Below, piece after piece: positions 51,668-55,568 of a DNA stretch of 64,000 nt. The notes under the pieces were generated by a model. The model did no database searches, was not told the origin of the DNA, and saw nothing but the letters and a program-made list of their open reading frames with translations. A program made the position numbers and the translations under genes. Location: assembly GCA_017415025.1 (NCBI GenBank), contig JAFQJH010000004.1, positions 62,001-126,000 of the forward strand. Direction: 5' to 3'. This DNA is from Clostridia bacterium (GTDB taxonomy: Bacteria; Bacillota; Clostridia; Oscillospirales; Acutalibacteraceae). The stretch's first letter is position 1. Every line of letters begins with the position of its first letter.

Positions 51668-51698
51668 AAAAACCGACAATGTGTTGCACATTGTCGGT
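51668..51698 (-). terminator. Terminator after the ABC exporter pair
   Basis: ACCGACAATGTG and CACATTGTCGGT form a perfect 12-bp stem around a 3-base loop and run into TTTTT on the minus strand. It separates the exporter operon from the NRPS-like operon. Confidence 0.9.
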
Positions 51699-51708
51699 CA
51701 GAATTTAT

Positions 51709-53511
51709 TTATTCGCTTGTTTTTTCGTACTTTTCGGCCTGCAGACGGAACATATAAGCATATTTTCCGTCCTTTTTCATCAGCTCATCGTGGCTTCCCG
51801 ATTCAATTATTCTGCCGTTTTCAAGCATCAGAATTCTGTCAGCATGACGTGTGGTAGAAAGTCTGTGAGAAATAAAGACAACTGTTCTGTCGTCACACTC
51901 ACGGCTGATAGCCTTGTTCAGCTCATACTCCGAAACGGGGTCAAGATTTGCCGAAGGCTCGTCGAGAATAATGTACGGACAATCCTTATAAAAGGCTCTT
52001 GCGATTGCAATCTTCTGCTGTTCGCCGCCCGAAAGCATAAGCCCGTCATCATCAAATTCACGAAGAAGAACCGTATTCACTCCGTTGGGCAGCTCCTTTG
52101 TAAAGCCTGCCTTGCGAAGAGCATCAAGGACTCTCTGCTCATCAAAATCCTTTTCGAGTGCAACATTTTCGCCGACGGTTGCACCGAAAATCTGAAAGTC
52201 CTGAAAGACCGCTGAAAATCTTGCACGGTGAGATTCAACCGTCACGTCGCGGATATCCGTACCGCCGATTTCAATCGAGCCGTCCGTTACGTCGTAGAGC
52301 CGCAGAAGCAGATTGGTGAGAGTTGTTTTGCCCGCACCGTTGTAGCCGACGAGAGCAATTTTTTCGCACGGCTCAATTTCAAACGAAATTCCGTTCAGCG
52401 CATCCTCGTCACTGCCAGTATAGGAAAATGAAATGTTTTTAACCGTGATTTTCTCGGGCTTACCGCTCTGCGCCGCCGTTTTACCGTCAAGCACTCTTGA
52501 TTGTTCTGCCATAAACACACGGTATTTTTCAATCATACCCGAGCGTTCCGTGAACTGACGTACACCGTAAACCGTGAGGTAGAGCACGCCGCCGCCAATC
52601 TGCACCGCGCCGTTGAAGGTTGCAACAAAATCACCTGCGGTCATATCGCCCGTGACAAGAGTTCTGTAACCGATGTAAAGCGTGAGTGCAAGCATAAAGC
52701 CGATAACCTGAACCGAGGTCTCCTGCACGAAGAAGATTTTGTCAATCTTTTTGACGTATTTATCCTGCGTACTGACAATATCATCCGCGCTCTCACTGAA
52801 GCGTCTGTCAAGCAGACCGAAAAGTCCGCCCGTGCGAATTTCGCCCGCATAATCCCTAAGGTAGAAAAGACGCGAGAAGTAGTCGCCCTTACGGTGCTTT
52901 TCCGTAATTTCCGTACGGCGTTTATTCATAAGATTGCCCGTATATCTGCCGACAGGAATAAAAATTGCAACCGAGGTCAGCACAATCAGCAGGCAGACAG
53001 GGTCAATCGTCAGCAAAACTGCACTGATAGTGAGGAAAGAAATAATCTCTCCTACGTAATATTTTACATTCTGAAGAATGTATTTGATGTTGTCGGAGGA
53101 CATTTCGACAGCGAGGATAAAGTCGCTGTAATAGCCGGGGTCGTCATACTTTGAAAGGTCGAGCTGTGCCGCCTTTTTATAAAGAGTAGACTGTATACCC
53201 AGGTCGAGCTTTTCGCGCTCTCTGTGAACAAAAAGCTCGAAGAATATCGAATTTCCGACCTCGCTGACAACAAGAATAAGCAGGATTGCCGCTATTCCTA
53301 TAACAACGTTTTTAACGTCACCGCCGTTAGTCACCTCGTCGATTATGTACTTGAGTCCGATAACCGAAATCAGCTTTCCCGGAAGTGTTTTGAGTATATG
53401 CTCGGCAATTTCGCCGACAACAAGAGCCGGAGAAATCTTAAACATCAGCTTGAGCATATAAAAAATGTTTGATACCATCGAGTGCTTTGTCTTGTTATTA
53501 TTCTTTTTCAT
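51709..53511 (-). CDS. ABC exporter half-transporter 2 (BmrD/heterodimeric multidrug type)
   Basis: A 600-aa protein with six membrane helices in the first 330 residues and a C-terminal ATPase: Walker A VGYNGAGKTTL, signature LSGGEQQKIA, Walker B YIILDEPSANLDP with the catalytic Glu, and switch FISHRLST. It starts at TGATG, overlapping the stop of its partner gene by one base, so the two are made together as a heterodimer. Substrate could be a drug, lipid or peptide; the leader-attenuator upstream favours a drug-responsive efflux pump. Confidence 0.88.
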   Translation of the reverse strand: MKKNNNKTKHSMVSNIFYMLKLMFKISPALVVGEIAEHILKTLPGKLISVIGLKYIIDEVTNGGDVKNVVIGIAAILLILVVSEVGNSIFFELFVHREREKLDLGIQSTLYKKAAQLDLSKYDDPGYYSDFILAVEMSSDNIKYILQNVKYYVGEIISFLTISAVLLTIDPVCLLIVLTSVAIFIPVGRYTGNLMNKRRTEITEKHRKGDYFSRLFYLRDYAGEIRTGGLFGLLDRRFSESADDIVSTQDKYVKKIDKIFFVQETSVQVIGFMLALTLYIGYRTLVTGDMTAGDFVATFNGAVQIGGGVLYLTVYGVRQFTERSGMIEKYRVFMAEQSRVLDGKTAAQSGKPEKITVKNISFSYTGSDEDALNGISFEIEPCEKIALVGYNGAGKTTLTNLLLRLYDVTDGSIEIGGTDIRDVTVESHRARFSAVFQDFQIFGATVGENVALEKDFDEQRVLDALRKAGFTKELPNGVNTVLLREFDDDGLMLSGGEQQKIAIARAFYKDCPYIILDEPSANLDPVSEYELNKAISRECDDRTVVFISHRLSTTRHADRILMLENGRIIESGSHDELMKKDGKYAYMFRLQAEKYEKTSE

Positions 53512-55337
53512 CAGTCATCCACACTCCCCTCTTGTGATTTGTAGCTTGAAGCCTGGAGTGTGAACATCTCCGAATAAATACCTCCGCTTTGCATAAGCTC
53601 TTCGTGAGTTCCGCTTTCTGCTACCGTTCCGCCGTCAAAGACGTAGATTTTATCCGAGAGCACCGCACTCGAAAGTCTGTGAGAGATATAGATAACCGTT
53701 TTATCCTGCGTTGCGGAAATAAGACTTTCATACATTTTGTATTCCGCAATCGGGTCAAGCGCACTCGACGGCTCGTCAAGCACGGCAAGGTCAAAGGCGC
53801 GAGCAAACATTCTTGCCGCCGCAACCTTCTGCTGTTCACCGCCCGAAAGTCCCGTGCCCTTTTCGTCAAACTCACGGGTAAGAACTGTCTGCGCCTTCTG
53901 AGGAAGTGCGTTCACACAGGTATCAGCGCCGCTGTTTTTCAGAGCCTCATCGACAAGCAAGGCATCATCCGCCGTCTCAACCTCGCGGCAGAGAACGTTC
54001 TCGCCGACGCTCAAGGCAAAGACCTTGTAATCCTGAAAAACAGTTGCAAGGCGGTCGCGCAGGGATTTGATGCTGTACTCCCTGATGTCAACACCGTTAT
54101 AGAGAATCACACCCTCATCGGGGTCATAGAAACGCAGAAGAAGCTTGACAAAGGTTGTTTTTCCTGCACCGTTCTTGCCCACAACTGCCGTTGTTTCGCC
54201 CTTGTTGAACTTGAGGTTCACATTGACGAGAGACGGCTTTTTCGCTGACGGATAAGTGAAAGAAACGTTTTTAAATTCAAGCGTTTCAAGCTCATCCGCT
54301 TCAAGACTTCCGCCCGTGACTGTGGATTCATATTCAAAGAATTCGCGCAGATTTCCGAAGAATTTTGCCTCCTTGCGGATTGCGCCGATTGCCTCACCGA
54401 GGTCGTTGAAAACATCCTTGAGGTTGCTCATTGCCGTCATAATAACGGAAAAATTTGAAATTGACAGATTGCGCTTGATTGCAAATCTGTAAGCCGCATA
54501 AATATAGGTTATTACAACGGGAAGTGACGTTCCGAAAAGTCCCGAAAGCACCTCGAGCACAGCCATTTTTTTGCCGTATTTTTTAATGATTTCGCGGTTA
54601 TTCTCAACCGCATCCTTATAGCGCGAATGCATAACGTTGAAGATGCCCGAGGTACGCATATCCTTTGCAAATTCACGAAGAAAAACCGTTCTTTTTACAT
54701 AAGCCTTCGAGCGCTTGTGCGGAGTCATCTTCTTATCCTTTTCAACCTCGACCTTACCCTTTACCGATTCGATTATAACAACAATAATCATTGATAAGAG
54801 TATAAGAAGAATTTTTGCATCAATCGAAATAACGTAAGCAATAAGGAAAATTCCCGTCAATCCGCCCGAGATTATCATTGCGAAGAAATAGCTGAAATCT
54901 GAGTAATGCGAATCGCTGATAATCTCCGTCGCGCGCTGATATTTGTCATAAAAATCGGGGTTTTCATAGCATTGCATATCGACCTCGACCGCTTTTTTGA
55001 AAACTCTGCGGTTAAGGTTCTTGTAAAAGACCTTCATCTGCCGCGAGCAGACGTAGTCGCCGAAGCAGTCCACCGCCTTTGAAAGCACGCCTGCCAGCGC
55101 AAAAACTCCAACCATTACGGCAAACTGTCCGAATGTTCCGCCCTTTTCGATAATATCGAGCAAAACCTTGAGGAACATTATCTCCTGCACAAAGCCTGTA
55201 AAAAACCAATATGCAATCATTGTTGCGACCTGCGACACGAGCATAAATGGGGCACACTGCGTAATGATTTTAAACGCATATAAGGTGTTTTTCAGGTTTT
55301 CAAAGCGTTCCTTTTTCTGTTTCTTTTTTTGTTTCAT
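53511..55337 (-). CDS. ABC exporter half-transporter 1 (BmrC-like)
   Basis: A 608-aa ABC exporter half: six membrane helices to about residue 350, Walker A VGKNGAGKTTF, signature LSGGEQQKVA, Walker B LAVLDEPSSALDP and switch YISHRLSS. Both partners keep the catalytic Glu, unlike asymmetric TM287/288-type pairs with a clear degenerate site. The N-terminus is very basic (MKQKKKQKKERF). I place the start at 55337 after GGAGAGGAGG; the frame runs another 27 codons upstream through the terminator hairpin, which is not likely translated. Confidence 0.88.
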   Translation of the reverse strand: MKQKKKQKKERFENLKNTLYAFKIITQCAPFMLVSQVATMIAYWFFTGFVQEIMFLKVLLDIIEKGGTFGQFAVMVGVFALAGVLSKAVDCFGDYVCSRQMKVFYKNLNRRVFKKAVEVDMQCYENPDFYDKYQRATEIISDSHYSDFSYFFAMIISGGLTGIFLIAYVISIDAKILLILLSMIIVVIIESVKGKVEVEKDKKMTPHKRSKAYVKRTVFLREFAKDMRTSGIFNVMHSRYKDAVENNREIIKKYGKKMAVLEVLSGLFGTSLPVVITYIYAAYRFAIKRNLSISNFSVIMTAMSNLKDVFNDLGEAIGAIRKEAKFFGNLREFFEYESTVTGGSLEADELETLEFKNVSFTYPSAKKPSLVNVNLKFNKGETTAVVGKNGAGKTTFVKLLLRFYDPDEGVILYNGVDIREYSIKSLRDRLATVFQDYKVFALSVGENVLCREVETADDALLVDEALKNSGADTCVNALPQKAQTVLTREFDEKGTGLSGGEQQKVAAARMFARAFDLAVLDEPSSALDPIAEYKMYESLISATQDKTVIYISHRLSSAVLSDKIYVFDGGTVAESGTHEELMQSGGIYSEMFTLQASSYKSQEGSVDD

Positions 55338-55364
55338 TTTACCTCCTCTCCGAGAGATTATGCC

Positions 55365-55436
55365 TTCTGCATAACGCAAAAACTCCCGGAACAAAACGTC
55401 CCGGGAGTGCAAAAACACAATGCCTGTTATGCAGAA
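55365..55436 (-). promoter_or_regulatory. Attenuator: intrinsic terminator nested in an 11-bp inverted repeat
   Basis: The terminator stem ACTCCCGG/CCGGGAGT (55401-55408 with 55382-55389, plus two inner pairs) runs into TTTTTG on the minus strand, between the leader peptide stop and the exporter start. It is enclosed by TTCTGCATAAC (55436-55426, covering the leader's last codons and stop) and GTTATGCAGAA (55375-55365, just ahead of the exporter ribosome site), a perfect 11-bp match. Confidence 0.78.
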
Positions 55437-55492
55437 ACAGACACAACCGCCGGATAACCGTTTTTGATGTTTTTCATAATTAATCTTGTCAT
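55427..55492 (-). CDS. 21-codon leader peptide ahead of the ABC exporter genes
   Basis: A 21-aa product starting MTRLIMKNIKNG and ending YPAVVSVSA, preceded by GAAAGGAGA at ideal distance. A second in-frame Met at codon 6 has no separate site. It has no Cys and no export signal. Position, size and the terminator immediately after its stop codon fit a regulatory leader like BmrB of the Bacillus bmrBCD operon, whose translation controls attenuation under ribosome-targeting antibiotics. A small secreted pheromone exported by the ABC pair is the alternative. Confidence 0.7.
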   Translation of the reverse strand: MTRLIMKNIKNGYPAVVSVSA

Positions 55493-55539
55493 TATGTCTG
55501 TCTCCTTTCTTAAATATTTACATTTTTCAATGCTCCTAT

Positions 55540-55568
55540 AAACTACCATATTAAGGCAAAAAAGTCAA
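55540..55568 (-). promoter_or_regulatory. Probable promoter of the leader-exporter operon
   Basis: Minus strand: TTGACT (55568-55563), 17-base spacer ending TGG (extended -10), TAGTTT (55545-55540). Confidence 0.55.

Follow-up and report, generated by a model that had tools for sequence, protein, structure and literature searches.

How is a pair of exporter genes governed when a short leader gene and a terminator stand in front of it? The question is raised by a stretch of 64,000 nucleotides (nt) from a Clostridia bacterium, here called the window (G000:C24:62001-126000, in a genome of 2.09 Mb in 28 contigs), in which a 21-codon leader open reading frame (ORF) and an intrinsic terminator precede a two-gene ABC exporter, a feature of the bmrB type. 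A sequence-only reading of the window had taken the arrangement for a leader-peptide transcription attenuator, and this view is supported, with a logic like that of bmrB or vmlR. The element is probably a ribosome-mediated attenuator that would sense a ribosome held up at the leader start or close to it. The basis of this proposal is computational: the parts of the element, the co-variation between them, a leader frame that is kept among relatives, the genes found downstream, and folds in which part of the RNA is masked by a ribosome.

The leader and its helices

The layout read from the window holds. The leader with its strong Shine-Dalgarno sequence (SD; AAAGGAG) lies on the minus strand, its stop codon falls within one arm of a perfect repeat of 11 base pairs (bp), the repeat encloses the intrinsic terminator, and the far arm sits just 5' of the exporter ribosome site (Table 1). 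The terminator begins 18 nt past the leader stop. A scan of 10 kb listed 22 terminator-like sites, where shuffled sequence would give 11.2, and this one comes first and has the most G-C pairs. A folding energy of -41.5 kcal/mol (z -4.74; 0/200 shuffles) was obtained for the stretch with terminator and repeat, and one of -21.6 kcal/mol (z -4.33) for the 52 nt that surround the terminator; the leader with its SD has a folding z of -3.34. A terminator between leader and gene is present in the window and in all 52 parsed elements with this layout, where terminators were partly selected for and three were hand-corrected. The candidate promoter, seen by eye, is not among the sites listed by the promoter and terminator scan; by eye, a TTGAC(A/T) box is similarly placed in six relatives.

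Folding of the whole leader revealed a helix that the earlier reading did not contain. It joins region 1 (SD and start of the leader) to region 2 (its last codons) over 15 bp and is called the lock. RNAalifold recovers it in 24 chosen sequences with 13 pairs, seven of which show two-sided changes. In permutation tests on author-chosen representatives, the own strands of the lock were compared with swapped ones as contiguous helices, giving 1/20,000 (z 4.6) for 18 representatives, 2/20,000 for 16 exporter-type members, and 0/20,000 for all 34 elements then parsed. The own partner again beats the swapped one (0/20,000, z 5.3) in a set of 14 divergent exporter loci that were found through their protein and selected because a leader ORF had been called in them. 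Taken singly, the lock exceeds 95% of shuffles in nine of these 14 and fails in L094, L105, L127, L128, and L138 (L-numbers are loci taken from related genomes). The two strands change together, for example as GGTGCACAAGATGA:TCATTTTGTGCACC in L159, GTGAATATAACG:CGTTATATTCGC in L116, and GGTGAACACA:TGTGTTCACC in L103. Judged by sequence, the lock reaches distant exporters.

The second helix, likewise missing from the earlier reading, is a candidate antiterminator in which region A, inside the leader frame, would pair with the top of the terminator (A:T). In the window, AAAACG and TCCGG face CCGGG and CGTTTT across an internal loop, with a duplex energy of -12.6 kcal/mol. Other pairs are CAAAGCTGA:TCGGCTTTG in L043, CGTCACGGCGC:GCGCCGTGACG in L057, and CTGATAAAATCA:TGATTTTATCAG in L145, L150, and L157. 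A:T lies outside the structure of both search models, R1 (seven sequences) and R2 (30 sequences), with which relatives were sought. Its duplex energy is -15.5 kcal/mol with own partners versus -9.0 kcal/mol with swapped ones in 29 chosen representatives (0/20,000, z -10.3); 20 close exporter-type members gave 30/20,000 (z -3.3). Scored as a contiguous helix, it gave 0/20,000 in 18 representatives (z 7.3), 12/20,000 in 16 exporter-type members, and 0/20,000 in all 34 then parsed. The best A helix, sought from +6, starts no earlier than nt +14 (n=52), which is near the edge of an initiating ribosome, going by the toeprints given for vmlR (+16; PMC9226507) and in the toiL paper (+16 to +18; PMC12121999).

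Conservation of the leader was a check set for the earlier reading, and among relatives the frame is kept while the peptide drifts. The frame was found in all six closest relatives from the first protein search, with 19-24 codons in the five best orthologues (82-89% identity) and one at 58%. The peptide opens with MTR(L/Y) in the five best orthologues and is variable in the middle, and all six relatives have YP(V/A)VVS near its end; SD, start, and distal codons are conserved at the DNA level in these six. Sequence comparison finds a strong SD and in-frame changes of leader length among relatives, and across the 52 parsed elements the length is 16-38 codons. Measured by script from the AUG to the region 2 core, the phase is constant in 43 of 51 elements, over 14 spacings. 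Four exceptions (L008, L081, L083, L058) look by eye like search-word mismatches, which would give 47/51, and in the four where the phase truly differs (L051, L057, L154, L159), the frame is open nonetheless. The leader stop comes 3-24 nt past region 2 (median 6).

Other features of these leaders may be recorded here. In 11 of 20 exporter-type leaders examined (L067, L069, L070, L071, L073, L039, L074, L075, L078, L076, L091), CCGTGT sits in the loop of a hairpin-like stretch at most 50 nt upstream of the leader SD; the stems vary between members, as in TTGTACC/GGTACAA and TTTCTGCACC/GGTGCAGAAA. Six loci (L068, L070, L071, L074, L075, L078) have an extra untranslated stretch of about 100-290 nt that separates the terminator from the exporter start and may be a second RNA element; CCTCTCA occurs in 6/6 and ACTCCGGA or GTCGTTA in some, and the stretch has no Rfam match. 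A short hairpin between the leader end and bases past the stop (GTGTCTGTT:AACAGGCAT) was set aside, being strong in the window's genus and patchy elsewhere by eye.

Spread of the element

How widely is this leader shared? A protein search with exporter subunit 1 in 148 related genomes (E<=1e-60) matched 62, and among 80 exporter loci from genome contigs, 29 match R2 at E<=0.01. In 28 of these 29, no more than 300 nt separate the end of the match from the called start of the exporter downstream, the exception being L090; 13 of the 28 were themselves R2 members, and three more are identical to members. The R2 match of L090 (L090:188-312, 72.5 bits) lies about 3.7 kb upstream of the exporter and probably precedes another gene. 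Some exporters of about 50% identity have different leaders together with a terminator.

Whole-genome searches were made in samples of the family, order, class, and phylum that partly overlap, so that their tallies are not additive. R1 matched 33 of 398 family genomes at E<=0.01; R2 matched 20 of 394 genomes of the order at E<=1e-3, nine of 391 of the class, and, at E<=1e-4, one of 299 of the phylum, which is the window's own genome. In that genome R2 has four matches at E<=1, and by eye the window element alone has the layout. The layout was seen by eye in 21 of 30 R1 family loci, 18 of 20 new order loci, and three of eight new class loci, which together bear nine family labels within the order plus two from elsewhere in the class, or 11 family-level groups. 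Rejected by eye, because an SD, a leader, or a fitting terminator was missing, were L050, L052, L053, L055, L056, L059, L060, and L061 (30 family loci), L142-L144 (own-genome search), L160 and L161 (20 new order loci), and L169-L172 (8 new class loci). L048, which matched R2 later, is not among the parsed elements, and L165-L167 look real and were kept out of the 52.

The genes behind these leaders are mostly of two kinds. Of 16 downstream proteins scanned, 13 match models of GNAT acetyltransferases, one NAT_N/GNAT_C, one ABC_membrane (a transmembrane domain), and one the PF09818 ATPase. Going by sequence, exporter-like proteins follow L040, L043, L044, L049, and L057, with others in pieces after L155 and L159; behind L058 comes a LytTR-like regulator, after which an exporter-like protein begins, and GNAT-like proteins follow L149, L164, and L165-L167. 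No fitting downstream gene was found for L045, L046, and L145 within the stretch examined. Viral contigs held no exact match to one GNAT-type pattern, and plasmids held no match for one GNAT-type element.

In related members of the class, the same device appears to stand before acetyltransferases of the GNAT type and before further ABC exporters. There is about an even chance that these leaders form one attenuator family spanning the class. In it, the ribosome-binding site of the leader itself would act as one strand of the anti-antiterminator, and a shared sensor of start arrest would stand before exporters, GNATs, and a few other genes, with the peptide free to change. With the ribosome-binding site in that role, a single start-arrested ribosome would both open the lock and free the antiterminator.

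Ribosome position and the competing explanations

What would the leader respond to? In the proposed mechanism, region 1 would pair with region 2 when no ribosome is present, and the lock would shut the leader ribosome site and hold strand A in a closed loop, so that the terminator forms and the pumps stay off. A ribosome moving along the leader would cover A and 2, and the terminator would form again. A ribosome halted within the opening codons (one to five depending on the member, the first two in the window), as by initiation-stage or early-elongation inhibitors, would cover region 1 and leave A and 2 free; A would then pair with the emerging terminator top, RNA polymerase would read on, and the exporter pair would be made. 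In cells, the signal for such switching would presumably be an antibiotic-arrested ribosome.

Folds were computed with a ribosome masking -14..+15 and half of the terminator 3' arm transcribed. Without a ribosome, the lock fraction in the window is 0.96. A ribosome on codon 1 or 2 brings the lock to 0 and gives about 10 A:T pairs; the disruption of an anti-antiterminator by a ribosome at the start, a vmlR-type feature, is thus seen in silico (0.96 to 0.0). The pairs fall to 3.2, 3.0, and 0.8 with the ribosome on codons 3, 4, and 5, and from codon 6 on there are none, apart from 0.5 at the last codon. Other mask sizes give 10.3 and 11.1 pairs at codon 1, and with the smaller mask, codon 2 drops to 2.7. 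Across the parsed elements, a codon-1 ribosome gives at least six A:T pairs in 51 of 52, with a mean of 12.2 for own versus 5.9 for swapped terminators. The earlier proposal that stalling on the leader prevents termination therefore needs a position: it agrees with the folds for the first one to five codons, depending on the member (two in the window), and in some relatives for the last codons as well, while a stall over A favors termination.

Several results weigh against the start-arrest reading. In elements found via R1 or R2 the lock is present by construction, and the permutation tests are optimistic, being inflated by sequence relatedness. The A:T helix of the window is weak (-12.6 versus -19.3 kcal/mol for the terminator, with its duplex split by the internal loop), and its own partner ranks 8th of 29, or 4th of 18 in another set. 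A:T fails to reach significance in the 14 distant exporter loci (1,930/20,000, z 1.3), and it exceeds shuffles singly in just two of them (L133, L138); a 12-locus subset gave 484/20,000, leaving out L105, which has no lock, and L109, a near copy of L103, both of which the 14-locus test includes. Support for the antiterminator is, by sequence comparison, confined to the 52 parsed elements, and the 14-locus result makes start arrest slightly less likely. The four-part pattern of the masked folds appears in 37 of 52 elements, while swapped terminators give 18, 15, 21, 18, and 25 of 52; with a ribosome over A, 51 of 52 have fewer than two A:T pairs, a result nearly given by construction, and a ribosome on the last codons also frees A in several relatives. 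Of the 15 misses, 13 have A:T formed even with no ribosome present, so members may differ in their untranslated state. Finally, the complete terminator wins at equilibrium in every ribosome state tested (0.97-0.98 in the window, 0.87-0.98 in four elements). Switching, if real, must therefore be kinetic, decided during terminator synthesis, with the antiterminator presumably winning in that interval.

An alternative is that the leader senses a failure to initiate: the loss of leader translation would itself turn the pumps on, since A, whenever no ribosome covers it, would pair with the terminator, either by itself or in a pseudoknot that includes the lock. The 14-locus result slightly raised this reading, and the no-ribosome fold already has at least 10 A:T pairs in L045, L046, L086, L151, L154, L156, L157, and L163; L086, an exporter leader, has a lock of just 0.01 in that state, and a pseudoknot of lock and antiterminator lies beyond the folding tools used. 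It is nevertheless unlikely, given that the lock is transcribed earlier than the terminator and that, taken singly, the exporter-type L002, L003, L004, L005, L043, L067, and L078 have lock fractions of 0.92-0.99 without a ribosome. Quite unlikely is a peptide-specific arrest of the ermK or msrD kind, in which a drug and the nascent YP(V/A)VVS would halt the ribosome late and free A. A YPxVVS or VLS motif does stand near the end of many leaders, and the last-codon folds of several relatives fit, but the YPxVVS motif is what the paired RNA of regions A and 2 encodes, the peptides of L043, L086, L103, L110, and L116 differ while the lock persists, and a ribosome at the stop of the window leader gives at most two A:T pairs.

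The sequence-only reading had put the switch in the 11-bp repeat, with a leader ribosome blocking it. The repeat is perfect, and its helix (2:4) co-varies in close exporter-type members (0/20,000, n=16), in the 34 then parsed (0/20,000, own versus swapped), and more faintly in 18 mixed representatives (279/20,000, z 2.3). Control of the terminator by the repeat is unsupported all the same and very improbable: with its far arm placed 3' of the U-tract, the helix can form only after polymerase has read through, and the repeat nests around the terminator and does not compete with it. In L054, L051, L043, and L044, the own 2:4 partner ranks 26th, 31st, 33rd, and 34th of 34. Control lies more probably with the SD lock and with the antiterminator between leader and terminator, and in read-through mRNA helix 2:4 would perhaps free the leader SD or change stability. 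It is scarcely credible that the ORF encodes a working peptide (a pump substrate, a signal, or a modified peptide) whose dose the hairpins tune: the strong SD, the kept frame, and the exporter downstream would suit it, but the peptide varies outside the paired segments, has no NCBIfam match, and belongs to a leader type also found before acetyltransferases.

Known classes were tried as well. A known riboswitch or leader family was rejected, as Rfam 15 gave 0 matches in the window (sub-threshold ones fell far under the gathering cut-off) and no match to the element in 25 relative loci (19 + 6), where just tRNAs and one Gut-1 RNA appeared elsewhere in the loci. An amino-acid starvation leader, of the trp or his biosynthesis type, was rejected since codons 2-6 share no amino acid and no residue run is seen in the peptides; the scanned downstream genes are mainly exporters and acetyltransferases.

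The exporter locus and related attenuators

The positions of all features are collected in Table 1.

Table 1. Features of the leader and exporter locus, in window coordinates
Feature	Position	Strand	Details
Candidate promoter	55540..55568	-	TTGACT 55568-55563, 17-nt spacer, TAGTTT 55545-55540; by eye
Region 1, leader SD/start, 5' lock strand	55491..55505	-	GGAGACAGACATAAT pairs with GTTGTGTCTGTTTCT, 15 pairs including G-U
Leader ORF	55427..55492	-	21 codons, MTRLIMKNIKNGYPAVVSVSA; ATG 55492, SD AAAGGAG, stop TAA 55429-55427
Region A, candidate antiterminator strand in leader frame	55450..55464	-	AAAACG + TCCGG; would pair with terminator top CCGGGACGTTTT
Region 2, leader 3' end, 3' lock strand	55433..55447	-	Folding, RNAalifold, distant-exporter test
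5' repeat arm	55426..55436	-	TTCTGCATAAC; overlaps region 2 and the stop codon
Intrinsic terminator hairpin	55382..55408	-	ACTCCCGGGACGTTTTGTTCCGGGAGT; 12 pairs, then TTTT; U-tract 55382-55378; between the repeat arms
Region 4, 3' repeat arm	55365..55375	-	GTTATGCAGAA, exact reverse complement of the 5' arm; downstream of U-tract
Exporter SD	55342..55348	-	GAGGAGG; read from sequence
ABC exporter subunit 1	53511..55337	-	608 aa; Pfam ABC_tran 5.9e-30; ATG 55337
ABC exporter subunit 2	51709..53511	-	600 aa; Pfam ABC_tran 2.4e-29; start overlaps subunit 1 stop
Terminator-like hairpin 3' of exporter pair	51671..51699	-	Terminator scan

Orthologues of subunit 1 with 82-89% identity occur in five genomes of the window's genus, and the nearest named records of orthologues are Clostridia metagenome-assembled genomes from the gut of deer, sheep, and cattle. 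The pair had been called a heterodimeric multidrug exporter. Heterodimeric multidrug exporters of the BmrCD type have one degenerate ATP site. The pairing of the genes fits that name, but both subunits keep the usual motifs (Walker A, signature, Walker B DE, H-loop), and no degenerate site of the BmrCD type was seen in either. L004 has a single in-frame TAA in its orthologue of the first exporter gene, although its leader and terminator are intact. A second exporter gene of the same genome (G000:C17:73167-74936) is 46% identical, and similar genes in other genomes of the genus (L013, L015-L018) directly abut the preceding reading frame, with no leader or terminator by eye.

Beyond the exporter pair and its 3' hairpin, the minus strand at 51664-48360 bears in series a promoter-like site and genes for an AMP-ligase, a stand-alone condensation-domain protein, and an acyl carrier protein. 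The divergent neighbor gene is cysteine desulfurase-like by eye. Close copies of the ligase and condensation genes adjoin the exporter in four of 30 loci searched (L062-L065), all of the window's genus. L066, of the same genus, has no such copies, its locus ending about 2 kb past the first subunit, and L077 has a 26% ligase-like match only. Among these 30 loci the neighborhood is limited to the window's genus, so the leader unit is the more widely shared of the two.

Which known attenuators come closest? The vmlR leader of Bacillus subtilis has a Met-Ile-Asn upstream ORF (uORF) in the SL-1 bulge, with the SD outside the stem, ahead of one ABCF gene; an antibiotic-stalled ribosome blocks the anti-antiterminator, the antiterminator forms, and intrinsic termination is avoided (PMC9226507). 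The present element would share with it a short uORF overlapping an anti-antiterminator that a stalled ribosome opens, but differs in its leader of 16 to 38 codons, an SD that is itself a lock strand, an antiterminator strand within the frame, and ABC exporters or GNATs downstream in place of an ABCF gene (PMC9226507). A tripeptide uORF with its SD outside the stem is not what the window has, its leader being 21 codons long with the SD in a helix. As in bmrB-bmrC-bmrD of B. subtilis, a translated leader, a terminator, anti- and anti-anti-terminator strands, and a two-gene ABC exporter would come together, but bmrB has 53 codons with a terminator-like structure within its coding region, and here the terminator lies outside the leader frame (PMC4191407).

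Arrest at a start codon has a described counterpart in the toiL uORF of Escherichia coli topAI, where tetracycline or retapamulin stalls ribosomes at the start codon, RNA pairing is altered, and the gene is turned on; the signal would be alike, but toiL controls translation and Rho-dependent termination of a toxin-antitoxin gene, and here the terminator is intrinsic (PMC12121999). Like ermK and mef-mel(msr), the element would combine a leader ORF with a terminator and antiterminator, in those cases before a resistance gene, but macrolides stall within the leader ORF there, and a hold near the start is predicted here (PMC5418344, PMC4335068). As far as these descriptions go, the nearest system in logic is vmlR and the nearest in the controlled gene is bmrB; the element is set apart from both within the known kind of ribosome-mediated attenuators. 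In the literature searched, no paper was found to describe it, judged by title or abstract opening.

If the start-arrest reading is true, many related bacteria share a sensor through which a ribosome arrested at the start acts on genes for exporters and acetyltransferases. The rule on which it depends, the position at which the ribosome stops, is directly testable, and natural compensatory pairs are ready evidence. The sensor would also mark out, among acetyltransferases and exporters without an assigned substrate, those that take part in responding to ribosome inhibitors.

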